From Deltaproteobacteria bacterium RIFOXYA12_FULL_61_11 (GTDB lineage Bacteria > Bdellovibrionota_F > JAHFAK01 > YA12-FULL-61-11): a stretch of 37,967 bases of DNA. The stretch covers positions 1-37,967 of the forward strand of contig MGSU01000247.1 in NCBI GenBank assembly GCA_001799195.1. Reading direction: 5' to 3'. Positions 6,393 through 22,977 of this stretch are shown piece by piece (positions within the stretch are counted from its first letter, which is position 1; each line of letters opens with the position of its first letter). The position numbers and the translations under genes were made by a program. Below the pieces are notes generated by a model that ran no database searches, was not told where the DNA came from, and saw nothing but the letters and a program-made list of their open reading frames with translations.

Positions 6393-6941
6393 ATGAGCCA
6401 ACGAAGAAAGGAAGCGGCGAGCAGGGCGCGCCGGGCCGTAGCGGATGTCGCCGGGCAGCTCGCGGCCCTACGAGAGATGACCGTGGGCCAGCTCTGCGAG
6501 CGGTACCGCGAGGTGTTCGGAGATCCGACCCGCTCCCGCAACAAGGACCACCTGCACAAGAAGATCGCCTGGCGGATCCAGGAGCTGGCCGAGGGCGGGC
6601 TCTCGGATCACGCCCGGGCGCGCATCGCCGAGCTGGCGCCCGGCGCACCGGTCCGGTGGCGATCGAGCAACGGCGGCGGGGCGGCCCGTCAGGCCCCCGA
6701 GCCGGACCAGATGAAGGACCGCGATCCGTGCCTGCCTCTGCCGGGCACGGTGCTCACACGCGAGCACCAGGGCGCCGAGCACCGGGTCACCGTGCTCGAG
6801 GACGGCTTCGAATACCGAGGAGCCCGCTACCGCAGCCTCTCGAAGATCGCGCAGGAGATCACCGGCACGAGGTGGAACGGCTACCTCTTCTTCCGTCTGA
6901 AGAACCGGGCGCGGGAGCGCGGCGCCGGAGGTGAGGCATGA
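6393..6941 (+). CDS. DUF2924-like protein, usually found next to recombinases
   Basis: Start at 6393 preceded by AGGAGG; conserved-looking ...VGQLCERYREVFGDPTRSRNKDHLHKKIAWRIQELAEGGLSDHARARIAELA... and C-terminal YRSLSKIAQEITGTRWNGYLFFRL. Confidence 0.75.
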   Translation: MSQRRKEAASRARRAVADVAGQLAALREMTVGQLCERYREVFGDPTRSRNKDHLHKKIAWRIQELAEGGLSDHARARIAELAPGAPVRWRSSNGGGAARQAPEPDQMKDRDPCLPLPGTVLTREHQGAEHRVTVLEDGFEYRGARYRSLSKIAQEITGTRWNGYLFFRLKNRARERGAGGEA

Positions 6942-8569
6942 GCGGCGCGAGGCGGCGGCCAGGATCCTCGAACGGGAAGCAGCCCGAGCCCAAGCGGCGC
7001 TGCGCCATCTACACGCGCAAGTCCACCTCCATCGGGCTCGAGCAGGAGTTCAACTCGCTCGACGCCCAGCGCGAGGCCTGCGAGCGGTACATCGCCGCTC
7101 GGGCCTGCGAGGGCTGGCAAGTCGTGCCCGAGCACTACGACGACGGCGGCTTCACGGGTGCGAACATCGATCGCCCGGCCTTCCAGCGCATCCTGGCCGA
7201 TATGGAGGCTGGAAAGATCGACGTGGTGGTCGTCTACAAGGTGGATCGCCTCTCGCGCTCGCTGCTCGACTTCGCCCAGGTCATGGACCGTTTCAACCGC
7301 TCGAGCACCGCCTTCGTGAGCGTCACCCAGAACTTCTCGACCGCCGATGCCATGGGCCGTCTCACGCTCAACATGCTGATGAGTTTCGCGGAATTTGAGA
7401 GGTCCATGATCGCGGAGCGAACCCGCGACAAGATCGTAGCCTCACGCCGCAAGGGCAAGTGGACTGGCGGTCCGGTGCCCATCGGCTACGACGTCGCCGA
7501 CAAGCACCTGGTCATAAACGAGCTCGAGGCCGTGGTGGTGCGCGAGCTGTTCGACCTCTACGAGCAGCACCGCTCGGCGCTCGCCGTGGCCCGCCTCCTC
7601 GACAAGGCTGGGCGAACCACGAAGCGCCACCGCGCCAACAACGGCAACGTGCGCGAGGGGAAGCAATGGACCAAGGACGCGGTCCTGCGCGTGCTCCGCA
7701 ACTCGCTCTACGCGGGCTACATGCCGTGTCACGGCGAGCTGCACGAGGGGGAGCACACGGCCATCATCGACCGCGAGCTCTGGCAGCGCGTCGCCGACCA
7801 GCTCGACGGCAAAGTGGGGCCCCGGCGGCCCGGCTCCCGCAACCCGGCCTACCTGCTCCGGGGCGTCTTGCGCTGCGGGCGGTGCGGCATGGCCATGACC
7901 CCGGCCTCGACCCGCAAGAAGGACGGGACCGAGTATCGCTACTATCGATGTGTGACCCGGGACAAGGAGGGCCGCGAGGCATGCACGGCGAGACCACTCC
8001 CCGCGGCGGCCATCGAGGGCTTCGTGGTCGAGCGTCTGCGCGAGGCAACCGCGAGCGGGGGTTTGGCCAGGGATGTGCGCGGGAAGCTGCTGGGTAAGCT
8101 CGATGCCCGCCGCAAGGGCCTGCAGACCGAGCGCCGGGACCTCCCGGCCAGGATCGCGAGCCTGTCGGCCGAGGGCCGCAACCTCGTGGAGACCCTCGGC
8201 CAGGCCAGGGGCACCGCGCACCGCCTGCTCGAGGAGCGCATTGAGGACATCGGCGGCCAGCTCGCCGCCTGCGAGCTGCGCCTCGCCGAGGTGGAGCGGG
8301 CGCTCAGCAACCTGGACCGGACCGAGATCGAGGTCCGCTGGGTGGCCGAGACGCTCGCGCGCTTCGACGCGGTCTGGGACGTGATGACCGCCGAGAACCA
8401 GGTCCGGCTCGTCGCGGCGGTCGTCGAGCGGGTCGAGGTGGACGAGCCGAGCGGCCGCGTCACCACCGTGCTCGCAGACCTCGACCTCGGCGACGACGAA
8501 GAAGATGACCAGGCCGACACCGCGCCCACGCCAGCCGCGGCTCAACCGACGATGGAGACCACACCATGA
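6938..8569 (+). CDS. large serine recombinase (site-specific integrase)
   Basis: 543 aa; AIYTRKSTSIGLEQEFNSLDAQREAC, VVVYKVDRLSRSLLDF, MLMSFAEFERSMIAERTRDK, recombinase domain, zinc-ribbon-like CGRCGMAM...YYRCVTRDKEGREAC, C-terminal coiled coil. ATGA overlap with the upstream gene. Confidence 0.93.
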   Translation: MSGARRRPGSSNGKQPEPKRRCAIYTRKSTSIGLEQEFNSLDAQREACERYIAARACEGWQVVPEHYDDGGFTGANIDRPAFQRILADMEAGKIDVVVVYKVDRLSRSLLDFAQVMDRFNRSSTAFVSVTQNFSTADAMGRLTLNMLMSFAEFERSMIAERTRDKIVASRRKGKWTGGPVPIGYDVADKHLVINELEAVVVRELFDLYEQHRSALAVARLLDKAGRTTKRHRANNGNVREGKQWTKDAVLRVLRNSLYAGYMPCHGELHEGEHTAIIDRELWQRVADQLDGKVGPRRPGSRNPAYLLRGVLRCGRCGMAMTPASTRKKDGTEYRYYRCVTRDKEGREACTARPLPAAAIEGFVVERLREATASGGLARDVRGKLLGKLDARRKGLQTERRDLPARIASLSAEGRNLVETLGQARGTAHRLLEERIEDIGGQLAACELRLAEVERALSNLDRTEIEVRWVAETLARFDAVWDVMTAENQVRLVAAVVERVEVDEPSGRVTTVLADLDLGDDEEDDQADTAPTPAAAQPTMETTP

Positions 8570-9115: not shown

Positions 9116-10096
9116 TCACAGGTCCACCAGATGGAACGCACCCAGATCATCGTTGAACTCCGTATTCGGGTTCACGTCACGAGCGAACTGCCCGTTCGTG
9201 ACGAAGACTTTCATTGACGGCCCGTTGGTGTCCACGACCACGCAGTTCGCCTGGTTGTTCGTGATGTAGCACAGCTCCCTGCTCGTCCACGCGCTGTATG
9301 CCAAGTGCTCGCTCCTCGCGTTGCCGAAGAGAGTCAGCCGAGGATTGACGACATCCAGGAAATCGCAACAACGCCCGGACTTCCGCCCGTGGTGCGGGGC
9401 AACGAGGATGTCTACGTTCTCGACATCCTTGCGGTGAGCATCGAGGACATGCTCCCAGGTGCCGTCGTGTGAGTCTCCCGCCAATAGGATTCGCCCCGCC
9501 TCCGATCGATAGAGGACTACGTATGAGGCGTCGTTGTAGTCATCCTCGACCAGATCCTTCGTCGGAGCCAAGACATGGAGACCGTCGCCTCCACCCTTAC
9601 CATCCTCGTTCCGGTTGTAGAACTGGCCGTGCGCGCCGGTGTAAAGGACGAGTCGCTTGGGGCTGGTTGTCGAATCGCGATCACGGATGTCCTTGTAGAA
9701 GAGCCAGTCCTCTTCCCGGTACGGTGCGCCCTCTCCGAATTCGATCTCCTTCGCGTTGTTCGTGTCCCAGAAGTTGACCGGGGCGAATTGCTCGAACAGG
9801 GCATAGATGCCGTCCATGTGGTCCATGTCAGGGTGGGTGAGGATGAACCTGAAGATGCTGGCTACTCCGAGGCCCCGAAGATACTCGATTGGGTTGACCG
9901 GATTTCTCTTCTGCGCGTAGTTGCCACCGGCTTTCTCCTTGTCCACCAGCGCCTTGGCCAAGGCCTCCTTTACGAGTCTCTCCGCGATCGATTCGACCGA
10001 CGCGTTGCACACGTCGACGACGGTGGTGTGACCTGAAGGATGCTGGATGATGGAGCAAGCGCCGTCGATGACGTTCAGGAAGTGGAAGATGCCCAT
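9116..10096 (-). CDS. MBL-fold (ComEC/Rec2-type) hydrolase
   Basis: 326 aa; HPDMDHMDG metal-binding motif, LLAGDSHDGTWE, ILVAPHHGRKSG. Confidence 0.85.
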   Translation of the reverse strand: MGIFHFLNVIDGACSIIQHPSGHTTVVDVCNASVESIAERLVKEALAKALVDKEKAGGNYAQKRNPVNPIEYLRGLGVASIFRFILTHPDMDHMDGIYALFEQFAPVNFWDTNNAKEIEFGEGAPYREEDWLFYKDIRDRDSTTSPKRLVLYTGAHGQFYNRNEDGKGGGDGLHVLAPTKDLVEDDYNDASYVVLYRSEAGRILLAGDSHDGTWEHVLDAHRKDVENVDILVAPHHGRKSGRCCDFLDVVNPRLTLFGNARSEHLAYSAWTSRELCYITNNQANCVVVDTNGPSMKVFVTNGQFARDVNPNTEFNDDLGAFHLVDL

Positions 10097-10122
10097 CGCT
10101 TGAATGCTCCCCGGCGGCTCCG

Positions 10123-10860
10123 TTAGATGTGATACCAGCGCCCGTCGACACGTAGGCGCTCCCGCCGGTCTTCGTAGTCAGGCAAGATCGTGCCGAGGAG
10201 TTTCCAGAACGCGGCCGAGTGGTCGCGCACCTCAAGGTGGCACACCTCATGCGCAACGACGTAGTCGACCAGGGACATCGGGGCCATGATGATGCGCCAG
10301 TTGAAACGCAGTTCTCCTTTGCTGCTGCAGCTCCCCCAGCGCTTCTCCTGGTTGCGGATTAACGTGGGTGGGCGCTCAACCCCTGCTCGTGTCGCGTACA
10401 GAGCGACGCGCTCGGGCAAGCGCCGCCCCGCCTGCTTGCGGTACCATGCAGTCACCGCGCTCTTGACGTGTTCCCAGCGCTGGTCAGCGTCCATCACCCG
10501 CCCGACCTGCACCACCAGGAAAGCGCCTCGAAGCGCGGCCTGGGGCTTCGCGATCCCCGGAAACCGCTCGATCTTCAATCGGTAGTGCCTCCCAAGATAC
10601 GCGCAGCTCTCACCACTCACGAACTCCATCGGCGGCGGCGCTGGACCGATCTCCTCGAACTCCAGTCTCCGCTGCAGAATCCAAGGCCCCTTCGACCGAA
10701 CCACGGCTTGCAGCCTATTGGCAGGTGTATCAGTCGGTGCCTTGAGAACGACCTCACTTGCGTCCACGGCAACGGTCACCGTATGGCGCCGGTGGCTTCG
10801 TTCGACGCGATAGTCGATGAGCGATGTGCCGAAGGCGACTTGGCCATGCTCCTGGGTCAT
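10123..10860 (-). CDS. DUF45/YgjP-like M48-type metallopeptidase
   Basis: 245 aa; HExxH as VVAHEVCHLEVRDHSAAFWKLLGTILPDYEDRRERL; RWGSCSSKGELRFNWRIIMAP. ATGA overlap with the stop of hsdR. Confidence 0.88.
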   Translation of the reverse strand: MTQEHGQVAFGTSLIDYRVERSHRRHTVTVAVDASEVVLKAPTDTPANRLQAVVRSKGPWILQRRLEFEEIGPAPPPMEFVSGESCAYLGRHYRLKIERFPGIAKPQAALRGAFLVVQVGRVMDADQRWEHVKSAVTAWYRKQAGRRLPERVALYATRAGVERPPTLIRNQEKRWGSCSSKGELRFNWRIIMAPMSLVDYVVAHEVCHLEVRDHSAAFWKLLGTILPDYEDRRERLRVDGRWYHI

Positions 10861-13853
10861 CGCGTCAGCCTCACGCGGGCGAGGTCCATCAATTTCGCGG
10901 TTAGAGCCTCTAGTTGCTCGCGGGGGTACCCAGCCCCACGGAGGTTGCGCTTTACTGCCTGTCGCATCCGGCGCTGGACGTCTTCCTTGTGGACCCAGTC
11001 GATGACTGCGAGATCCTGAAGATCAGCGAGGATCTGTGCCGCCTGGTCACGGCGCCCGCCATCGACAACCACGTCGGCGCTGGCGTTGGTGCCGCTGTCG
11101 CTCGCGATGCCGCCATCGGCAGTGCCCAGGAGTTCGTAGATGGCGAAGCCGGCTTCGTCGAGACCGACAGCCTGTGCCGTTGCGTGTACGTTCTTCATGT
11201 CGCGCACGACGTCGCCGAGGAGGCGTAGCTGCTCGGCAGCGCCGACGCGCGCCTGGCGGCGTTCCTCGATGATTTGCGCCAGGCGTTCCTGCAGACTCCC
11301 GTAGAAGACCGGGTTCTCGTCCATCCGAACATGGATCTCGTGGCGGATCGCGTGCTCCATCTCGCTCGCCCGAGCCTCATCCGAGCCGAGCTTCTTCATC
11401 TCGTCCTCGAACTCCGGTGCGAGGATCGAGACCGGCTCGAGGAGTTGTTCGACGCCGCCCGCCGCGATGTGTTCCTCGATGAGCGCCCGGACCTTTGCGC
11501 GGCACCCAGTCAGGTCGAATCGCGAGTCCCGAAAGCGCACCCGCGCTGCGTTGCGCACCTTGCCGAGCCACTTGAGGTCGGCCATGAATGGGAGTGCGGC
11601 GGGGTCGGGTAGGAGCATGTCCATGGCTTGGGCGAAGCGCCGAAAGGCCAGCTCGTACTCGGCGCGGGCGTCCTCTGGTTCCAGGATGCGGATGCAGCCC
11701 TCCACGTCGTCCCGCCCAATGCGAGAGAAGAAGCGCATGGCTGTGCGGTGGTACGACTCCAGCCGGGGGAGGAGGTCCGCCTTCGGTCGCATGGCGCCCT
11801 GGACGTCGGACGGCGCGAAGACGCTGAGCGCTTGCTCCAGGTATAGCGCTACGCCCCAATAGTCGACGACCAGCCCGTAGTCCTTGCCCTCAGCGGTCCG
11901 ATTCACACGCGCGATGGCTTGCAGGAGGGTATGCTCCCGCAGCGGCGCATCCAGGTACATCACCTGCTCGACGGGAGCATCGAAGCCGGTGATCAGCATG
12001 TCGCAGACGACAAGGATCGCGAGAGGGTCCTCCGGATCTTTGAAGCGTCCGATGAGCTTGCGCTGATCCTCCTTGGTCGTGCGCCATCTCGCCAGTCGCT
12101 CTGGGTCGTTGTGCGTGGACGACATGATCAGCGCCGATTCCGGCGCGCTGAGGCGATCCAGCGTTTCCTTGTAGGTCACGGCGACGTCGCGGCTGCATGC
12201 GACGACTTGCGCCTTGAACCCGTTGGGATGGATGAACTTCTCGAAGTGGTCGATGATGTCGAGGCAGACAGCCTCGATCCGTCTCGGCGCGGCGGCGACT
12301 GCTTCCTGGGTCGCGAAACGCTGTTTGATTGTTTCTCGCTCCTCATCAGAGCGGTCCCTAAAGATACGTTCGAAGACGGCATCAAGCGACTCACCCTCAA
12401 TGCGCTCAGGCGATTGCCGCATCTCGTAGAAAATAGGTACCGTCGCCCCATCCTGAACGGCCTGCTCAATCGTGTACTTGTGGATGTAGTCACCGAAAAC
12501 CTGCAGCGTGCTCCGGTCCTTCTTGTCGATCGGCGTGCCGGTGAATCCGAGGAAGCACGCGTTGGGTAGCGCCCGGCGCATGTTGGCGGCGAGGCTCCGA
12601 TACTGCGTCCGATGGGCCTCGTCGACCATCACGAAGACGTTCTCCGCGGTGTTGAGCACCGGGTGCCCCTCTGTCGCGGCCTCCTGAAACTTCTGCACGG
12701 TCGTCATCACCGTCTGGCCACCTCCTCGGTTCAGCAGCTCCCGCAGATGCCTCACGTTCCTGGCTTGCACCGGGTTGGGGAATCCGCAGCGCTGAAAGGT
12801 GCCGGTGATCTGGTTATCGAGGTCCTTGCGGTCGGTGACCACGATGAGCGTCGGGTTTGCCGCGATGCCGAGGCGCCGCAACTTCACGGCCAGAAACACC
12901 ATCGTGAGGGACTTGCCCGAGCCCTGCGTATGCCATACGATTCCGCCGCGCAACGTCGGCCTCTTGGCCTTTCGGATGCGTTCGATGGCGCCATTGACGG
13001 CGATGAACTGCGGAAAGCGGGCGAGCTTCTTGTAGGTTCGTGCCCCGTCGACCTCGAACACGATGAAGTTCTGCACGAGGTCGAGGAGCGTTCCCTTGTT
13101 CAGGAGACCCCAAAGGAGCACGTCCTGCGGTGTCGGGACGCGCCCAAGCGTCGCCCCGAGCTGGTCCAGCGTCAGAGGATGCGGGACCTTCCACTCGCTC
13201 CAGTTGCGCGCCGGCGTACCGATCGTGCCGTACTTTGCAGCCTGGCCGCAGGTTCCGATGAGGATCTGCGCTGCGTGGAAGAGACGCGGTGCGCCCAGGC
13301 CGCGAAACCGATCGTCAACCTCTTGGTAGCGGAAAAGCTGCTCGATGGCTTTGTCGAGCGGGTCGTTGATGGTGGGGCTCTTGCACTCGATGACGACGAT
13401 CGGGATCCCGTTCACGAAGACGACGATGTCGGGGACCGCGGTCTGCTTGGTGCCCGAGACACGGTACTGCCGGGTGAAGACAAACTCGTTCTTCGTTGGA
13501 TCGTCAAAGTCGATGAAGCGGACTGTCTGGCCGCGTATGCCTTGTCCGAGGTCCTGCTCCAACGAGATGTTGTGGACCAAGGCGGTGTGGACCTGCTCGT
13601 TCGCCTCGATGAGCCCGGTCGCCGCCGCGTGGGTGATGTGGCGGATCGCCTTCCTGACGTTGTCGTCGCTGATCCACGGATTCAGGCGCCGCAGCGCCGC
13701 CTCGAGGCGCTTGACCAGGACGGGCTCCGCGAGGCTCTCGCGCTCGGCATCGAGCACCTCGGCGGGCACGAATTCGTAACCGAGCTCGCGTAGCAGGGCG
13801 TCGGCCGGCTCTTCGGCGAGGTGAACCTCGTCCCATTTGAAATCCAAGGCCAT
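10857..13853 (-). CDS. hsdR: type I restriction endonuclease subunit R
   Basis: 998 aa; nuclease motif TAVPDIVVFVNGIPIVVIECKSP, Walker A HTQGSGKSLTM, DEAHRTQYRS, GFTGTP, MLITGFDAPVEQVMYLDAPLREHTLLQAIARVNR. Confidence 0.96.
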   Translation of the reverse strand: MALDFKWDEVHLAEEPADALLRELGYEFVPAEVLDAERESLAEPVLVKRLEAALRRLNPWISDDNVRKAIRHITHAAATGLIEANEQVHTALVHNISLEQDLGQGIRGQTVRFIDFDDPTKNEFVFTRQYRVSGTKQTAVPDIVVFVNGIPIVVIECKSPTINDPLDKAIEQLFRYQEVDDRFRGLGAPRLFHAAQILIGTCGQAAKYGTIGTPARNWSEWKVPHPLTLDQLGATLGRVPTPQDVLLWGLLNKGTLLDLVQNFIVFEVDGARTYKKLARFPQFIAVNGAIERIRKAKRPTLRGGIVWHTQGSGKSLTMVFLAVKLRRLGIAANPTLIVVTDRKDLDNQITGTFQRCGFPNPVQARNVRHLRELLNRGGGQTVMTTVQKFQEAATEGHPVLNTAENVFVMVDEAHRTQYRSLAANMRRALPNACFLGFTGTPIDKKDRSTLQVFGDYIHKYTIEQAVQDGATVPIFYEMRQSPERIEGESLDAVFERIFRDRSDEERETIKQRFATQEAVAAAPRRIEAVCLDIIDHFEKFIHPNGFKAQVVACSRDVAVTYKETLDRLSAPESALIMSSTHNDPERLARWRTTKEDQRKLIGRFKDPEDPLAILVVCDMLITGFDAPVEQVMYLDAPLREHTLLQAIARVNRTAEGKDYGLVVDYWGVALYLEQALSVFAPSDVQGAMRPKADLLPRLESYHRTAMRFFSRIGRDDVEGCIRILEPEDARAEYELAFRRFAQAMDMLLPDPAALPFMADLKWLGKVRNAARVRFRDSRFDLTGCRAKVRALIEEHIAAGGVEQLLEPVSILAPEFEDEMKKLGSDEARASEMEHAIRHEIHVRMDENPVFYGSLQERLAQIIEERRQARVGAAEQLRLLGDVVRDMKNVHATAQAVGLDEAGFAIYELLGTADGGIASDSGTNASADVVVDGGRRDQAAQILADLQDLAVIDWVHKEDVQRRMRQAVKRNLRGAGYPREQLEALTAKLMDLARVRLTR

Positions 13854-13854
13854 G

Positions 13855-15153
13855 CTACCGCCCCCTTACTGCGCCGCTGGCGCGCGCGCCGTTGGTCTTG
13901 CGCGCGCGGACCCGCACGCGGCCGGACAGCAGCCCCTGGGCGAGGCCCCGCTTGGTCTGGCGAAGCTGCTCGAGGTACCGAACCTCGGCCGTAATACGAA
14001 GGTCGAATGCCTCGCCCACGTCGGCGATGGCAGCCTGCTCGTCCAGCGGCGGTAAGAGAATCTTCAGGCGCTTGAATGCGTGCATGAAGATGTTGCGGAG
14101 TGTGGTGCTCCCGTCGCTGAGGCGCTGCCACTCGCGCTGCATGTGCCGAAACACCTGCTGGAGGTAGCGAGAGTCGAGTTCGGGCTCCGGAACGAACGCC
14201 ACGTAGTCTTGGCTGCACGCCATCGTCGCCGCCAGGCGGCTGCATTTGCCGCGCGATCCGCCGGTCCGGATCAGGAGCACGGATCCGACAGGGAGCATTC
14301 GTGCTGACGAGTTCGCGATGCCGAGCGGGCTGATGCGCCCGTCCGCATCGTTCACCTCGATTTCATTGAGACGATAGGAATCGGGCAGAGACAGCCACGG
14401 GATGTCGCCGTTCCAGTAGTCCGGTTCCTTGCGACTCGGCGTGTGCCCGCTCTCGAGCTTCGCGATCTTCGTTAGCGTCACGAGCTTCCAGTGCAACGGC
14501 ATCCTGTCGACCAACGACGCGATGCGCCCGATGGGCCACGACTCCGGCAGCGGCACGAGCTTCGTCTTGTGCTTCGCGTTCCCCTTGGTGAGCAGCTCGC
14601 GCATCAGCCAGAATTTCGATCGGCGAAGCTCAGCTACGAACTGGTCGGTTCCGTCAATCGCAGCATCTACGGCCGCGAGAGAACGAGAGATGCGCTGCTG
14701 TTCCTCCGTCGGTGGCGTAGTCACGACCGAGGCGAGGAATTCCTCAACCGGGACGCGTTGAGCCTTGCGAGAACCAATGGCCATCCCGCGATAGCGACGG
14801 TAAAAGGCGGGGCGAATCAGTACAGAGAGCAGCCAGGCAGGGTCGACGTCTGGCGCGATATCGAAGCACGGAAGGTCGAGCGTGCTCTCGTATCCATCGA
14901 GTTCTGGAGGGACGAGCCCGAACGCCCCGTTGAGGAAGTCGAGCTTACTGAAGATCAGCTGTCCTTGTCGCCGCTTGTAGTACTTCGTTGCCGAACTTCC
15001 ACCGCGATCGTTGACCTTGGCAACCACCCCCTTGCCGTAGAGTCGCACTGTGAGCTTCTGTGCAACCCCACCAGACGAGCCCGCCAAGCGGCTCTCCTTC
15101 AGAAAGTCGCGAAAGCGAGCCAGCCGCCATCCATCGAGGCCTTCATCGACCAT
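13855..15153 (-). CDS. hsdS: type I restriction-modification specificity subunit S, two target-recognition regions
   Basis: Start at 15153 (MVDEGLDGWRL) overlaps the end of hsdM by 11 bp; conserved-region signatures TPPTEEQQRISRSLAAVDAAI and LLPPLDEQAAIADVGEAFD. Confidence 0.88.
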   Translation of the reverse strand: MVDEGLDGWRLARFRDFLKESRLAGSSGGVAQKLTVRLYGKGVVAKVNDRGGSSATKYYKRRQGQLIFSKLDFLNGAFGLVPPELDGYESTLDLPCFDIAPDVDPAWLLSVLIRPAFYRRYRGMAIGSRKAQRVPVEEFLASVVTTPPTEEQQRISRSLAAVDAAIDGTDQFVAELRRSKFWLMRELLTKGNAKHKTKLVPLPESWPIGRIASLVDRMPLHWKLVTLTKIAKLESGHTPSRKEPDYWNGDIPWLSLPDSYRLNEIEVNDADGRISPLGIANSSARMLPVGSVLLIRTGGSRGKCSRLAATMACSQDYVAFVPEPELDSRYLQQVFRHMQREWQRLSDGSTTLRNIFMHAFKRLKILLPPLDEQAAIADVGEAFDLRITAEVRYLEQLRQTKRGLAQGLLSGRVRVRARKTNGARASGAVRGR

Positions 15154-16657
15154 AGCCGAGCTCCCGCAGCACCTTGTCCATGCGCTTGGCTGCTGCATCG
15201 CGCTCGGCCTCGGCCTTGGCGAGAGCGGCAAGAGCAGCCTCTACGTCAATGGGCTCCTCCGGTTCGAGCGTGTCGACGTACCGGCTGATATTCAGGTTGT
15301 AGTCGTTCTCCTTGACCTCATCGAGGGGAACCACACGAGAGAACCGGTCCTCGTCCTTGTAAGCTCGGAAGGCTTTGACGATACGTTCAACATCCTCCGG
15401 ACGCAGCACGTTCTGGTTGCTGCGGGCCTCGAATCCCTCTGCCGCGTGGATGAACAGGATCCTGCCACGGCGCTTCCTCGGCTTGTCGCGGTTCAGGATC
15501 AGGATTGCTGCCGGGATGCCGGTCCCGTAGAAGAGGTTCTCTGGCAACCCGATGATCGCCTCGAAGAGATCGTCATCGACGAGGCCCTTGCGTATGTCGC
15601 CGTCGCCGCTGCCGCGGAAGAGCACTCCCAGCGGCATCACGACTCCGACCATGCCCTTCGCGCTCAGAGTGGCGACCATGTGCTGCACGAACGCGTAGTC
15701 GCCCATATTCTTGGGTGGCAACCCGTAGTGAAACCGCTGGAATGGATCCTCAGCGGCCATCTCCGCGCCCCATTTGTCGAGGCTGAAGGGCGGATTAGCG
15801 ATCACGCGGTCGTAGAGCATCAGCTCGCCGCCGTGCACTAGCTTCGGCTCTCGAATGGTGTCGCCCTTCTCGATTCGTGCGTCTGGCAGGCCGTGAAGAA
15901 GGAGGTTCATCTTGCAGATGGCCCATGTGCCAAGGTTCTTCTCTTGTCCGTGGAGCGTTATGTCGATGGGATCGGTACCGATCCGGCGGCCCTGCCTGGC
16001 CGCGACGTGCTCGGCGCACTGGATGAGCATGCCGCCAGAGCCGCATGTCGGGTCGCAGATCCGCATCTCCTTGTCAGGGTCGAGGAGCTTCGTTATCAGC
16101 TCTACCACTCGTTGGGGCGTGTAGAACTCGCCGCCCTTCTTCCCAGCATCGTCGGCGAAGCGCTCGATCAGGAACTCGTAGGCGCGCCCGAGCATGTCCG
16201 GCTCTTCGAGGTCGGTATTGCGCAAGCGGATCTGCGCGAAGTGCCCAACCAGCCTGTGCAGGATGCTGTCGCGCTGCTTGCCATCGCCTAGCTTCCGGCT
16301 GTCGTTGAAATCTATGTTGAGGAGCACCCCCTCCAATGTGGGATTCGCCTCCTCAAGCGCGGAGCATGCCTTGTTGAGGGCGTTGCCGATGTCCTTCGTG
16401 AGCTTGCTGATCGCGTCCCAGCGAGCCCGCTTCGGCACGAAGAACTGGTGCTCATCTGGATCGGTCCAGGCGACATCCTCGTCCTCACCTTCGGCAATGA
16501 GGGTTTCAGCCTCCTCCTCGAAGCGATCAGACAGTCGCTTCAGAAAGAGAAAGCCGAAGATGTAGTTCTTGTAGTCGGACGAATCGATAGAGCCGCGCAG
16601 GATGTCGGCGGCGGCCCACAGGTGCCCGTTCAAGCGGGTGCGGGTCAAGATTGACAT
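15143..16657 (-). CDS. hsdM: type I restriction-modification N6-adenine methyltransferase subunit M
   Basis: 504 aa; SAM motif DPTCGSGGMLI, catalytic motif NPPFSLDKWG, N-terminal HsdM bundle (LNGHLWAAADILRGSIDSSDYKNYIFGFLFLKRLSDRF). Confidence 0.96.
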   Translation of the reverse strand: MSILTRTRLNGHLWAAADILRGSIDSSDYKNYIFGFLFLKRLSDRFEEEAETLIAEGEDEDVAWTDPDEHQFFVPKRARWDAISKLTKDIGNALNKACSALEEANPTLEGVLLNIDFNDSRKLGDGKQRDSILHRLVGHFAQIRLRNTDLEEPDMLGRAYEFLIERFADDAGKKGGEFYTPQRVVELITKLLDPDKEMRICDPTCGSGGMLIQCAEHVAARQGRRIGTDPIDITLHGQEKNLGTWAICKMNLLLHGLPDARIEKGDTIREPKLVHGGELMLYDRVIANPPFSLDKWGAEMAAEDPFQRFHYGLPPKNMGDYAFVQHMVATLSAKGMVGVVMPLGVLFRGSGDGDIRKGLVDDDLFEAIIGLPENLFYGTGIPAAILILNRDKPRKRRGRILFIHAAEGFEARSNQNVLRPEDVERIVKAFRAYKDEDRFSRVVPLDEVKENDYNLNISRYVDTLEPEEPIDVEAALAALAKAEAERDAAAKRMDKVLRELGYGR

Positions 16658-17421
16658 GATTTCTCTCCCTCCGATGGAGTGCTGTTCTTCGCGGACTCCT
16701 CGCCCAACGCAACAGCGGCTTCAAAGAAGCTCTCCGCGTAGTAGTGGGCCTTCCTGCGGACATACCGTGGTAGGATGACGGCGAGGGCGAGCGCACATAG
16801 CGCGATGATCGTGGAGGTGAGGGCCCACAGGATCGGGCGGTCGTACCAGACGAAGGCGGACCAGCATCCTGCGAGACTGGCGAGCGCAAAGATGCCCCAC
16901 ACCCAGCGCAGGCCAGCGAGGTTCCGGGCGAAGCCGTAGTCCACGTTGTGGAGGCGCATCCGTTCCGCCTTGGCCGCTTGCCACAAGCGATTACGCAGCG
17001 CCTGCACTGCATCATTGATTACCGCCTTCAACTCGCCTGCATCACCAGCGTCAACCGCCGCCTGGATGTCGAGCCCCAGCATGGACCGGATGGTCCCGTA
17101 CCACCGCTGCTTCTGCTGCGTGGATACAGACTTGTCGTCTGGATGGAGCCACCGGTTCGTCGGTGCGTCGTGCGGCCAGTCCGGCCAGAGCGCCTCCTGC
17201 AACCGGTTTCCGGCCGCTGAGGCGACGTGCGAAAGCGCGACAGCCAGAATCGCTCCGAGTCCGACGCCTGCCGCGACGACTTTCACCCACTCCATCAAGG
17301 GCGCGCCGAACGCCGCTGAGACCGGGAGCAACGGAAGCACGGACAGGACCGCCGGCAGGAAGCGAGCCTTCCTCTCGTAGTGATCGCTGAGGTTCACGTA
17401 ACTGAGCCAGGTCTTCTTCAT
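16645..17421 (-). CDS. predicted four-TM membrane protein
   Basis: Start at 17421 (MKKTWLSYVNL) gives an ATGA overlap with the E2-E1-JAB stop. Four hydrophobic segments: FLPAVLSVLPLLPVSAAFGA; VKVVAAGVGLGAILAVALSHVA; WVWGIFALASLAGCWSAFVWY; ILWALTSTIIALCALALAVIL. 3' end overlaps hsdM by 13 bp. Confidence 0.75.
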   Translation of the reverse strand: MKKTWLSYVNLSDHYERKARFLPAVLSVLPLLPVSAAFGAPLMEWVKVVAAGVGLGAILAVALSHVASAAGNRLQEALWPDWPHDAPTNRWLHPDDKSVSTQQKQRWYGTIRSMLGLDIQAAVDAGDAGELKAVINDAVQALRNRLWQAAKAERMRLHNVDYGFARNLAGLRWVWGIFALASLAGCWSAFVWYDRPILWALTSTIIALCALALAVILPRYVRRKAHYYAESFFEAAVALGEESAKNSTPSEGEKSCQS

Positions 17422-19709
17422 GACGACACTCCCTGCAGCAGGTTCTCTTCGCTCTTGATCTCCCCGACGTAGCAACTCGTCCGGCCGGGGTCTCCGACGA
17501 TCATCATCACTGCCGGCAGACCATCGGCCTCCATCAGGCTGGTAAGCCACGCGAAGACCTCCAGATCATCGTGACTCGCGGCGGTGCATGCGCCGCGGGG
17601 ATGGGAGTGCCATTCGCCGACGTACTCGATCATTCCGTGCGTGGTCTGCTGGACGTTATCCACCGCATCTCGAAGGCCCTTGCTCCCGCGGATGTACAAT
17701 GTGGGCCATTCCTCGCTGTCAGGAGGCGACGGCAACGCATCGGCGATGTACAAAATCGACCGCTCGACGTCGAATGACCCGAGGAGCACACCACCCGTCT
17801 CGTTCGGCAGCTTCTGCTCGCGAAGAGCCGAGAGCCTGTCGAGGAGGCCTTCGTCGGTCACGACCTCCCATCCGCCCGCCTGCAGGCGGATCACCGGCCG
17901 GGTGCTTGCCGCGATCCGGCGAACGCTCCCGTCGAGTTCCGCGCGCCAGACCGCGATCAGGGGGCCCGAGTCGCGCAGCCGCTCTCGCAGCGCTCCTGCC
18001 GCGATAGCGGCGTGCAGGGCCACCATGTGCTGAGGGAGGGTGCTGGTGATGTCGCGGCAGGATTGCCCGTAGCGTCGGCGACTCTGCTTCTCTCCGAAGT
18101 GGCCCTCGAGTGCCGGCTCGTCGATCGCCGCCCGGTAGTACTGCATCTCCAGGGCATCGAGCGGAAACCGCCGGTCCTGGTCTTCGGCGATGAGCACGAG
18201 ATCCTTCCCTGACGGGGTCATGAACAGCGATGCCCGCCTGGCGTTGCTGTCGACGTCGCACGCCAGCGTCCTGGCGACGGCTACCGACGTGGACACGTCG
18301 AGAATGGTATCCGCCTCCCGCATCACTCTCGCCAAATCCTCGCTACCCTCACCGGCGCAAAGCACGTCGCGCGGCAAGGCCAAGAAGAGGTTCTCGCCGA
18401 CAATCGAGTTCGCCACGAAGGCCAAGCCCTCGGCCTTGTTGCAGCCGATGAAATGTCCGTCGAGCGCGTGGCGAGCCGCGTTGTGCGGCATGAGCTGGTC
18501 GTGGTCGACTAATGTCCACTGGCCAAAACCGCTTCGGGCCAGGTGAAGGATGGCCTGCGAACCGAGCGCCCCCGCGCCGACTGCGGCAACGCGGAGTTTG
18601 GCGGGAGCATCGTCACCGTTCAGAAAGGCGGCCATCGAGCGGGTCAGATCGGAGGAGACGTTGAGAACGTCGACGGCGACGTCGTCTCCTCGCTTCTCTG
18701 CGTCCGGTTGGAGCAGCCCGGCAACTTCACCTTCGAAAACGTCCCACAGCCCGATTCGTTGCCCGAGATAGCGAATCCGAAGGTCTGCGGAAGCGCCGTG
18801 GTTCGCTGTGGCGTCGCCGAGGTAGAACGCCCAGGTCTCGACGCGCTCCGGCTCGCCTTCGTCCTCCCGCCGCATGGGGACCACGATGACCAGCAGCAGC
18901 CGTGCACCGAGGATCGCGGGGGTGGTCGCGTGCCATTCCTTGATGCGCTCTCGAACCTCCTCGAGCAGGTCGAGCCCGGTGCCGGCCAGGATCGAAGCCA
19001 GGTCGGCAAGAGAGCGAGGACGGCGATGGATTACGCCGTGCGTGTGTGGGGGCGTCCGATGGACGCTTGCCAGCATGTCGAGAGCCGCTCCGTCCGACGG
19101 CGGCTCGGTCTTCGCGATCAGGAACAGGCGCTGCCTTGCGTCCCTGCAGGTCACGAAGAGGCGCTGGGGCGCGTCGGTCGCGTCCCAGGCGGATCGCGGA
19201 AGAACGATGTGGCCCGCGTGCTCCCCAAGGAGCGGCTCCAAAGGCTGATCACCTTGGTGCAGCTCCCCCCGCGCGTTGAGCGCCAGCCACTCCCGGACGC
19301 GATGCACGAACCGCGGAGCGGTCCAGGTGCGCTTGATGTCCTCGTAGCGCTCATCGTAGAGGCAGAGGCTGCGGGGGTACTCCTCAATGTGAAGATTGAG
19401 ATGAGGGACGCGGGGGAAGTCGCGGCGCAGCGCGTAGACGATGGGGAAGGTGGCATCCTGCGCGTCGAAGCGCGCGGCGATTCGCTCCGATGCTCGGATC
19501 GGGTGGAGGGGCACCTGTGACACCTCGACATCAACGTCGAAGACCACCCATTCCGCATCGGCGTCCTTCCGGCACACTACGAAGGAGGCGAAGTCGATGC
19601 GACCCGCCCGAAGCTTCAGCGCCAGGTCCCGGCTCTTCTGGACGCAAAGTTCCTCGGGTTCTATAGGCTCGCCGCCCACATCGAAGAAGGGAGAGCTCAT
19701 CGGTGTCAT
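17418..19709 (-). CDS. E2-like + E1/ThiF adenylation + JAB/JAMM peptidase triple-domain protein
   Basis: 763 aa. E2-like HLNLHIEEYPRSLCLYDERYEDIKRTWTAPRFVHRVREWLALNARGELHQGDQPLEP; E1 nucleotide-binding VAAVGAGALGSQAILHLARSGFGQWTLVDHDQLMPHNAARH; putative E1 Cys RYGQSCRDITSTLPQ; JAMM EWHSHPRGACTAASHDD with upstream NETGGVLLGSF. Confidence 0.9.
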   Translation of the reverse strand: MTPMSSPFFDVGGEPIEPEELCVQKSRDLALKLRAGRIDFASFVVCRKDADAEWVVFDVDVEVSQVPLHPIRASERIAARFDAQDATFPIVYALRRDFPRVPHLNLHIEEYPRSLCLYDERYEDIKRTWTAPRFVHRVREWLALNARGELHQGDQPLEPLLGEHAGHIVLPRSAWDATDAPQRLFVTCRDARQRLFLIAKTEPPSDGAALDMLASVHRTPPHTHGVIHRRPRSLADLASILAGTGLDLLEEVRERIKEWHATTPAILGARLLLVIVVPMRREDEGEPERVETWAFYLGDATANHGASADLRIRYLGQRIGLWDVFEGEVAGLLQPDAEKRGDDVAVDVLNVSSDLTRSMAAFLNGDDAPAKLRVAAVGAGALGSQAILHLARSGFGQWTLVDHDQLMPHNAARHALDGHFIGCNKAEGLAFVANSIVGENLFLALPRDVLCAGEGSEDLARVMREADTILDVSTSVAVARTLACDVDSNARRASLFMTPSGKDLVLIAEDQDRRFPLDALEMQYYRAAIDEPALEGHFGEKQSRRRYGQSCRDITSTLPQHMVALHAAIAAGALRERLRDSGPLIAVWRAELDGSVRRIAASTRPVIRLQAGGWEVVTDEGLLDRLSALREQKLPNETGGVLLGSFDVERSILYIADALPSPPDSEEWPTLYIRGSKGLRDAVDNVQQTTHGMIEYVGEWHSHPRGACTAASHDDLEVFAWLTSLMEADGLPAVMMIVGDPGRTSCYVGEIKSEENLLQGVSS

Positions 19710-20836
19710 CCTGCCCGCGGAGCGCTTCGGGACGTAGCGATGATCGCTGCCGTCCGGGTGGTCTTCTTCGGGGTCGCCTTGTCCTTTCCGATCTCGATCA
19801 CCAGCGGCTCGGGCGCCGTGGTGTTCGGGTGCTCCATGGTGACCAGGAACTGGCCGTTGAGGTCGCCCGTGACGCCCTTGTGGTAGTTGGCGGCCTGCCG
19901 ATGGGGCGGCTGCGGGTCCTCGTCCTCATCGCTGCCCGCGGCAGGGATCGGCTTGCTCGTAGAGACGCATATCGCCCCGCTCGCGCCCTGCTCTTCGAAC
20001 AGCCAGGCGACCTGGTCAACTGCCTCGGTCTTGTCCTTGCCTTTTTCTGGGCCGATCGACTTGTAGCTGCAGTGGTGGGGCAGCTTTACGATGTCCCATT
20101 CCAGGCGCTTGTCGTTCTTCTTCGCCTTGGTGATGTCGACGATGTCGGCGAGAACCTCATGAGTCGAGTCGGCGAAAAGGAGCGCCCGGGTGTGCACGCC
20201 TTCGATTTCAAATGTCACTTGAAACACGAGCGAGTCCCCGTTCCGGTCCTCGAGCGTGTTCTCGTCCTGGCGGACGGCGAAAGGGGAGTGGACGAAAAAC
20301 TCGACCTTCTCCACGGCGAGGCTGAACTCGGGGGCGATCTTCCCGGCGTCGGTGATCAGGGCGAGCCGGTCCTCGAGCTTCAGGCCGTTCTCCTCGCACC
20401 ACTTCCGAAGACGCTCGGGGCGGGAGAAGACCCGGATGCCCTTTCCTTCCTTGAAGCGATGTCGCGCCTCTCGCTGGAGGATACGCGCCTCGTCCTCGTC
20501 GGGTGCCTTCTCCGTGATGAGCGCTGCGGGCACCCACATCACATTCATCTTGATGCGGTCGTCGCCCTGGTACTTCTGCGCGTGCCTGAGGTGGAAGAAC
20601 TCGGTCGAGCCACAGAAGTGGTCCTTGTCCAGGTGGGTGAACGCGACCACGTCGTAGTAGTCGCGCTTGCGCTCCTTGAGGTCGGCCCGGAGCAACTCGG
20701 GCAGGTCACACCGAAGATCGTCATCGTCGTCCGGGTCCCGGGTAGCGGCGAAGTCGACCAGAATCGTCCTGCCGCATTCCAGGTCGATCCGACAGCAGTC
20801 GGCGTTCCCGAGGGGGAAGAAAGTCATCTTGTGCAT
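19706..20836 (-). CDS. MBL-fold protein coupled to the E2-E1-JAB gene
   Basis: 376 aa; VVAFTHLDKDHFCGS, LLFADSTHE, VKLPHHCSYKSI; SD AAAGGAG before the ATG at 20836 and an in-frame TGA further upstream; ATGA overlap with the downstream E2-E1-JAB gene. Confidence 0.85.
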   Translation of the reverse strand: MHKMTFFPLGNADCCRIDLECGRTILVDFAATRDPDDDDDLRCDLPELLRADLKERKRDYYDVVAFTHLDKDHFCGSTEFFHLRHAQKYQGDDRIKMNVMWVPAALITEKAPDEDEARILQREARHRFKEGKGIRVFSRPERLRKWCEENGLKLEDRLALITDAGKIAPEFSLAVEKVEFFVHSPFAVRQDENTLEDRNGDSLVFQVTFEIEGVHTRALLFADSTHEVLADIVDITKAKKNDKRLEWDIVKLPHHCSYKSIGPEKGKDKTEAVDQVAWLFEEQGASGAICVSTSKPIPAAGSDEDEDPQPPHRQAANYHKGVTGDLNGQFLVTMEHPNTTAPEPLVIEIGKDKATPKKTTRTAAIIATSRSAPRAG

Positions 20837-21314: not shown

Positions 21315-21980
21315 TCAGCTCCTCTCCGGCAGCTCGGAGACGAGCGCGCCCCTCAATAGGGTGTTGGCCACTTCGCGCCCCAGCATGCGACGCCGTTCGG
21401 CAGCTTCGATGGCGGCGACGTAGTGGTCCTCGGCGGCTCGCACCAACTCTGCGATTTGCTGTTGCACCTCCAAAGGCGGCACGGGCACCTCAAGCCGTCC
21501 GACGCTCTTGGGGCTGAGCGCGAGGCCAAGAGTGGATGACCGGCTTCGACCCAGCAACGCGGCCTGGCCTCGCGGGCTTTGAAGGAAGGCGAAGAGCACG
21601 GGCGCCAGGAGGTCGGGCCCGGTACGGATACCGATCAGGTTTGAACTGAGTACGGCACCGTGCGCCTCCTCGGCAATGCACGCGACCTTTAGCTGACTAC
21701 CTCTGCACGTGATGACCACGTCACCGGCGTGAACCTGATAGCGGTCGGCAGAGTAGCCCTTGGGCACCGGGCGAGCCTCAAGCCTCTCGATGGGCGGCAC
21801 ACGTCCCTCACTCAGGTCCCGCACGTTGATCAAGGGCACGGAGTGGTGCTCGTCAGCGGCGGCGGCACGTCGAGAGGATGCCAGACCGACGAAGATAACC
21901 TTCGCAACGTCGGCCAGGCGACGACTGGGGCAAGCGGCGGTGCTGGTGGAAGAGCGCCTCATGTCCACCAGTTTAGTCAT
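21315..21980 (-). CDS. half-size type I specificity-subunit-like protein (one target-recognition domain)
   Basis: 221 aa; VPLINVRDLSEGRV, YQVHAGDVVITCRGSQ, LSPKSVGRLEVPVPPLEVQQQIAELVRAAEDHYVAAIEAAERRR. Confidence 0.75.
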   Translation of the reverse strand: MTKLVDMRRSSTSTAACPSRRLADVAKVIFVGLASSRRAAAADEHHSVPLINVRDLSEGRVPPIERLEARPVPKGYSADRYQVHAGDVVITCRGSQLKVACIAEEAHGAVLSSNLIGIRTGPDLLAPVLFAFLQSPRGQAALLGRSRSSTLGLALSPKSVGRLEVPVPPLEVQQQIAELVRAAEDHYVAAIEAAERRRMLGREVANTLLRGALVSELPERS

Positions 21981-22170: not shown

Positions 22171-22497
22171 TCATTGCCGCTCCAAAGTCGTGATGACGTG
22201 GGCGCTCCCGCGTTCGATGGAGTTCAGGACCATGTTGAGGCCCACCACGGAGCGGCCGAGCCGTCCCAGACCTGTCACCACCACCACGTCGATCTCGCCC
22301 GAGGAGATTGCCCCGAGAAGCGAGGCCAGGCCGGGCCCAGGTCCGCCGCTACCGGACACGTTCACGTCTCGATATTCATGCACGATCACGCCGTCTCCAC
22401 GTTCGGCCACCGCAGCTCTCGCCGAGGTGATCTGCCGTTCCGCAGCAGCTGGACCGCCAGCCGCCGTGCGCGCGTACACGGCGTACCGGATCTTCAT
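22171..22497 (-). pseudogene. serine recombinase (resolvase N-terminal domain) fragment, catalytic Ser apparently absent
   Basis: MKIRYAVYARTAAGGPAAAERQITSARAAVAERGDGVIVHEYRDVNVSGSG...GEIDVVVVTGLGRLGRSVVGLNMVLNSIERGSAHVITT; ends after about 108 aa. The usual YxRxS reads YARTA, and DRLSR reads GRLGR. Confidence 0.6.
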
Positions 22498-22977
22498 CGT
22501 CTCCCTGTAGTCGCGGCTCAAAGTTGTTCCCTCCTCTCCTGGCGCCCGAGGTTCGGAGGCCAGGTCGACCGCGCGAGCTCCGCGGCTCCGAGAGCCATGA
22601 AGGGGTTTTCTGTTGGGGAAGGCAACTCTGAAAGGCACTCCCGTTCTCGGATTGGTCGTCTGCGTGCTGCCCCGATCTGGAACGTCCTCAACGAGTGGGA
22701 CGCTGGCGGGCTATGCGGTCGGCGTTGACGACACGTAGTCCGCGATCACGCCGGCGGCACCCCCTGTCAACCAAGCCTTCCGGCCCTTGCCCGTCGAGGC
22801 CCTCGCTGTCAACCAAGGCCCCGTGCTCTCTCCCCGCTCTCGGCTTCGGAGAGCACGATCGGCCCCGAGACGGCGTGCCGGAGGTCGTCTCCGTGATCTC
22901 CGCGAGCGCGGTGCCGAGAGCAAGCGACGAGGGGCGGGAGGCGGAAAGGCCCGCGAGAACTGGCCCTTCTACGACGA

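Follow-up and report, generated by a model that had tools for sequence, protein, structure and literature searches.

An operon assigned to the 6A-MBL system, with an E2-E1-JAB fusion protein and a probably conjugated MBL-fold partner

Gene content and family assignment

The DNA analyzed here (the window) is a stretch of 37,967 nucleotides from Deltaproteobacteria bacterium RIFOXYA12_FULL_61_11 and carries, on its minus strand, a compact operon of three genes. The first encodes a 376-amino-acid MBL-fold hydrolase that resembles the ComEC nuclease and is the probable conjugated protein (positions 19706 to 20836), the second a 763-amino-acid fusion of E2, E1, and JAB domains with an ATG start (17418 to 19709), and the third a 258-amino-acid protein with four predicted membrane helices (16645 to 17421), which is a candidate membrane effector according to its open reading frame, its hydropathy, and its relatives in the same operon slot. 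The MBL stop codon and the fusion start codon overlap in an ATGA, as do the fusion stop codon and the third-gene start codon at 17421, and the third gene shares 13 bases with hsdM, which belongs to a type I restriction-modification set (hsdM, hsdS, and hsdR) directly downstream on the minus strand (10857 to 16657; NCBIfam hsdM and hsdR over the cut-off).

In NCBIfam release 20.0 (June 2026), the source of the 6A-MBL family names, the fusion is the "anti-phage 6A-MBL system cap2_3 protein" (NF058523; 644.5 bits versus a cut-off of 320), and its upstream neighbor is the "anti-phage 6A-MBL system MBL-fold protein" (NF058524; 412.9 bits versus a cut-off of 220), so that both proteins reach about double their curated equivalog cut-offs. 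By these sequence matches, the operon is an anti-phage 6A-MBL operon, the term "anti-phage" being taken from the NCBIfam name. It has both genes of that system, with an equal fusion order, and we found no feature that distinguishes it. Iyer et al. (2006; PMC1779556) also listed, as their row 6a, a triple module that runs E2, E1, JAB within a single polypeptide, and they noted that a metallo-beta-lactamase gene adjoins this type almost always. The fusion is therefore not new. The sequence-only reading of this DNA had stressed that conjugase and deconjugase are joined in one chain here and separate as Cap2 and Cap3 elsewhere; the joined chain is confirmed, but its novelty is not, given the 2006 report and the NCBIfam equivalog 6A-MBL_cap2_3. 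The same reading overlooked the neighboring MBL gene, whose product is the probable conjugation substrate. PADLOC left the system unnamed, with the fusion matching generic E1-E2 and JAB models and the MBL-fold protein giving LmuA/RTasMBL/Avs1a-like matches.

The two genes are tightly coupled. An MBL open reading frame lies upstream of the fusion at all 79 homologue loci with upstream sequence on the contig (locus L019 starts at the contig edge and is outside this count), and relatives of both genes also occur on plasmids from many genera. Relatives of the window MBL-fold protein occur in about 2 to 3% of sampled genomes from two phylum groups, and a scan of viral contigs with this protein returned four loci only.

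The position downstream of the fusion is variable. Among 67 gene products encoded directly there, window included, 41 are patatins and 10 belong to the four-helix membrane family of the window, followed by Lactamase_B (4/67), a caspase-like protein (1/67), and DUF6338 (1/67). The third gene thus sits where a patatin stands elsewhere; its protein has 9 relatives in the same slot, one of them from Desulforhabdus (locus L010) with 54% identity. Pfam gave no match for this protein or for that of a 121-amino-acid upstream gene. At locus L063, the gene at 10088 to 11452 is likely to be the one encoding the caspase-domain protein of this count. On the other side of the operon, 14 of the 66 upstream genes examined are of the WYL type and 7 of the ImmA/IrrE type. 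Judged by these gene families, the 6A-MBL arrangement is that of a defense operon with exchangeable killing modules.

The hsdM, hsdS, and hsdR genes are neighbors and lie outside the conserved 6A-MBL unit. Together with a gene for a YgjP-type metallopeptidase they are tightly packed at 10123 to 16657, on the same strand as the 6A-MBL genes, and relatives of type I restriction genes are found near few homologue loci only (L053, L088, L036, L026, and L075). A short, one-domain HsdS-like gene is located upstream of the MBL gene (21315 to 21980), and no repeats able to excise the operon were found in common between it and the full hsdS gene (13855 to 15231). The defense genes are flanked by a full large serine recombinase gene (6938 to 8569) and a short resolvase-domain gene (22171 to 22638), as if they sat in a mobile element.

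The E2-E1-JAB fusion protein

The claim that E2, E1, and JAB share one polypeptide was borne out by Pfam, which placed three domains in that order, each above its cut-off: Prok-E2_A at residues 58 to 171 (81.5 bits, cut-off 25), ThiF at residues 370 to 473 (46.9 bits, cut-off 28.1), and Prok-JAB at residues 620 to 740 (38.3 bits, cut-off 25). The three active sites named earlier from the letters alone are likewise present, and we found no variation in them among 78 homologues taken from genome contigs of many phyla. For E2, this applies to the catalytic C116 (codon at 19362 to 19364, minus strand) with W141 and H151. For E1, it applies to G378, G380, and G383 of the GxGxxGS motif, to D402, D404, N410, and K425, and to the candidate catalytic C551 (codon at 18057 to 18059, minus strand). 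The JAMM motif (E...HSHP...SxxD; 17565 to 17801, minus strand) is complete, with the ligands E637, H701, H703, S712, and D715. Among divergent fusions encoded beside divergent MBLs, the Cys residues of E2 and E1 and all five JAMM ligands are kept wherever the gene appears intact. At one such locus (L134, 1321 to 7219), the stretches resembling E2-E1 and JAB occupy different reading frames, the gene being either broken or a split form of the fusion. The window protein can be described from its sequence as a predicted enzyme of ubiquitin-like conjugation that attaches a tag and removes it with the same chain.

Structure prediction, earlier put forward as a check, yielded a confident AlphaFold2 model on the 78-member alignment (pLDDT 92.2, pTM 0.85) with the fold of Cap2 plus Cap3. 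Its top Foldseek match in the PDB is full-length Cap2 (7to3; E value of 1.6e-27 over 654 aligned columns), followed by Cap2-CdnD02 tail complexes, and a domain-sized part of the model matches Cap3 in complex with a CD-NTase (9ild; E value of 4.1e-9). That extent is expected for the JAB domain, as a sequence search aligns 9ild to the JAB of the fusion. With Cap2 as the best match, Cap3 matched too, and the PADLOC E1-E2 and JAB models hit, the protein could be taken for a CBASS Cap2-Cap3 whose cyclase is encoded elsewhere. We consider this highly improbable: the SMODS cyclase model (PF18144) has no match in the genome of this organism, which is 87% complete, no such cyclase turned up in the list of gene families that neighbor the homologues, the adjoining gene is always an MBL gene, and NCBIfam keeps the families apart.

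The MBL-fold protein and its C-terminal tail

While Pfam gave no match for the window MBL-fold protein, its AlphaFold2 model has a pLDDT of 92.9, and the best PDB match of this model is the MBL domain of ComEC (9ic4; E value of 1.4e-13). The metal-site residues H68, D72, H73, D223, and H254 are invariant in 70 MBLs. Over the last 16 residues, the pLDDT falls to about 50. This disordered tail (residues 361 to 376; codons and stop at 19706 to 19756, minus strand) reads ...SRSAPRAG and is outside the NF058524 model, which stops near residue 351. In the 70-row alignment, R374 is 96%, A375 is 87%, and G376 is 100% identical, and the remaining tail on average varies more than the folded core.

The RAG motif was picked from the first nine MBL sequences, in which it is invariant at or near the C terminus, and tested on 80 new loci; since the choice was made on those nine, the later loci are a real test. 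In the whole set of 88 loci, the tail pattern [RK][AVQH]G plus 0 to 6 residues was found in 86, with R in 83, A in 77, and G in 86. Both exceptions (L040 and L065) are frameshifted records in which the other frame reads TTRAG* and PARQG*. A crude independence estimate over 37 clusters at 60% identity, with the motif coming from the first nine, puts the chance of this pattern at ~1e-47. HG or QG is the usual ending of the divergent MBLs from a profile search that are encoded beside divergent fusions, and in some of them a short extension follows; L134 is the lone unclear case. Related MBLs without a fusion partner had no such tail, except for one ComEC that ends in HGG.

The tail stops at G in 54 of the 86 loci and continues for 1 to 6 residues in the other 32, an example of a natural extension being PRAGRGN at locus L020. 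We read these extensions as precursor-like because they resemble BilA, which is trimmed by BilC. The conserved tail could instead be a docking or degradation signal, that is, a peptide recognized by the fusion or a protease and joined to nothing covalently, and such a motif would tolerate short extensions past the Gly. However, the extensions also fit precursor processing, and a docking peptide accounts less readily for the tails that end exactly at Gly, for the action of Cap2 on the last residue of a protein that lacks a beta-grasp fold, and for the retention of all three catalytic sites of the fusion. We therefore view docking as unlikely and conjugation through the tail as the better reading.

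Probable conjugation of the MBL-fold protein

In type II CBASS, a cyclase without a beta-grasp fold is joined to targets via a conserved C-terminal Gly or Ala; this residue is conserved only in systems that have complete Cap2 and Cap3, and Cap3 removes the cyclase (PMC10097602, PMC11153139). The 6A-MBL operon has a Cap2-like E2-E1 fold (7to3), a Cap3-type JAB, and a partner with a conserved small residue at or near its C terminus, a pattern that fits C-terminal conjugation, and it lacks a cyclase. For these reasons, the MBL-fold protein is probably conjugated, by analogy with the CBASS cyclase. The less expected result is thus the very probable identity of the tag, namely, the neighboring MBL-fold enzyme, whose floppy end nearly always closes with the same three-residue pattern.

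Alternatively, the fusion might conjugate a beta-grasp protein of the ThiS/MoaD type whose gene lies at another place in the genome, leaving the MBL-fold protein as an effector only. For JAB-associated E1s, Iyer et al. accepted ThiS/MoaD and further ubiquitin-like proteins as possible partners (PMC1779556), and the genome, at 87% completeness, contains one weak ThiS-family match outside the operon; none of the three operon proteins matched the beta-grasp models of Pfam and NCBIfam. A modifier acting in trans would, however, leave both the invariant last residues of the MBL tail and the constant MBL-fusion adjacency unexplained, and an operon that occurs across phyla and on plasmids is less likely to rely on a modifier supplied by its host. 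This alternative appears improbable.

Family membership, intact catalytic residues, coupling of the genes, conservation of the tail, and effector swapping are established here. As a whole, they are best explained by an MBL-fold protein that would be conjugated via its Gly tail, with reversal by the JAB domain and a swappable effector, a reading to which we assign a probability of roughly 0.8. The E1 domain would bind the disordered ...PRAG tail and adenylate its C-terminal Gly, after which the protein would move as a thioester to Cys551 of E1 and then to Cys116 of E2 and, by analogy with Cap2, be joined to lysines of a target, which could come from the phage, be a membrane or effector protein, or be the MBL-fold protein itself. 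The JAB domain of the same chain would take it off again, so that one polypeptide would set the balance, and may also trim MBL precursors, namely, the residues past the tail Gly in those relatives that need it; the window tail already ends at Gly. The conjugated protein would be a ComEC-like metal-dependent hydrolase, probably acting on DNA, and the swappable membrane-attacking protein (a patatin in most relatives, the four-helix protein here) would kill or arrest the cell. It is likely, if slightly less so than the reading as a whole, that the MBL-fold hydrolase is itself a modifier, the second without a beta-grasp fold after the CBASS cyclases, that it is often made as a precursor with 1 to 6 extra residues, and that one polypeptide trims, conjugates, and releases it beside an interchangeable membrane effector.

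A 2025 review names Cap2 as the sole ubiquitin-like transfer system known to act on a protein without a beta-grasp fold (PMC12355090), and the RAG tail offers a direct way to test 6A-MBL as a second one. The MBL-fold protein is also a candidate for the modifier left unnamed in the 2006 description, and the presence of conjugase and deconjugase in one chain provides a compact system for studying the balance of both activities. A literature search of incomplete coverage found no paper on MBL conjugation, so the tail prediction can be called new only tentatively; should the study from which the NCBIfam name stems have reported such conjugation, the window is one more example only.

Type II CBASS and 6A-MBL further share swappable effectors, including patatin, and nearby regulators of the WYL or ImmA type. 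They differ in that conjugase and isopeptidase form one chain in the window, with no separate Cap3 gene, and in that the partner is an MBL-fold hydrolase and not a nucleotide cyclase, no CD-NTase (SMODS) gene being found in the 87% complete genome. The terminal motif also differs: R-A-G plus an optional extension is conserved in 6A-MBL, whereas for CBASS cyclases conservation is reported for the last residue alone (PMC10097602). The Bil/Bub systems similarly use bacterial E1, E2, and JAB proteins for conjugation in defense, and the Bil JAB enzyme trims a precursor; unlike the window operon, they encode a beta-grasp modifier, and their enzymes are separate or differently fused. A ComEC-like MBL fold in phage defense is shared with the MBL nucleases of AVAST, Lamassu, DRT, and Hachiman (HamM; PMC12799240). 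The window contains a second MBL-like gene (9116 to 10096), whose product shows weak ComEC and 6A-MBL matches and ends in HLVDL, with no RAG tail; relatives of this protein are encoded near 6A-MBL operons at seven loci of other genomes (L063, L074, L019, L077, L079, L073, and L024).
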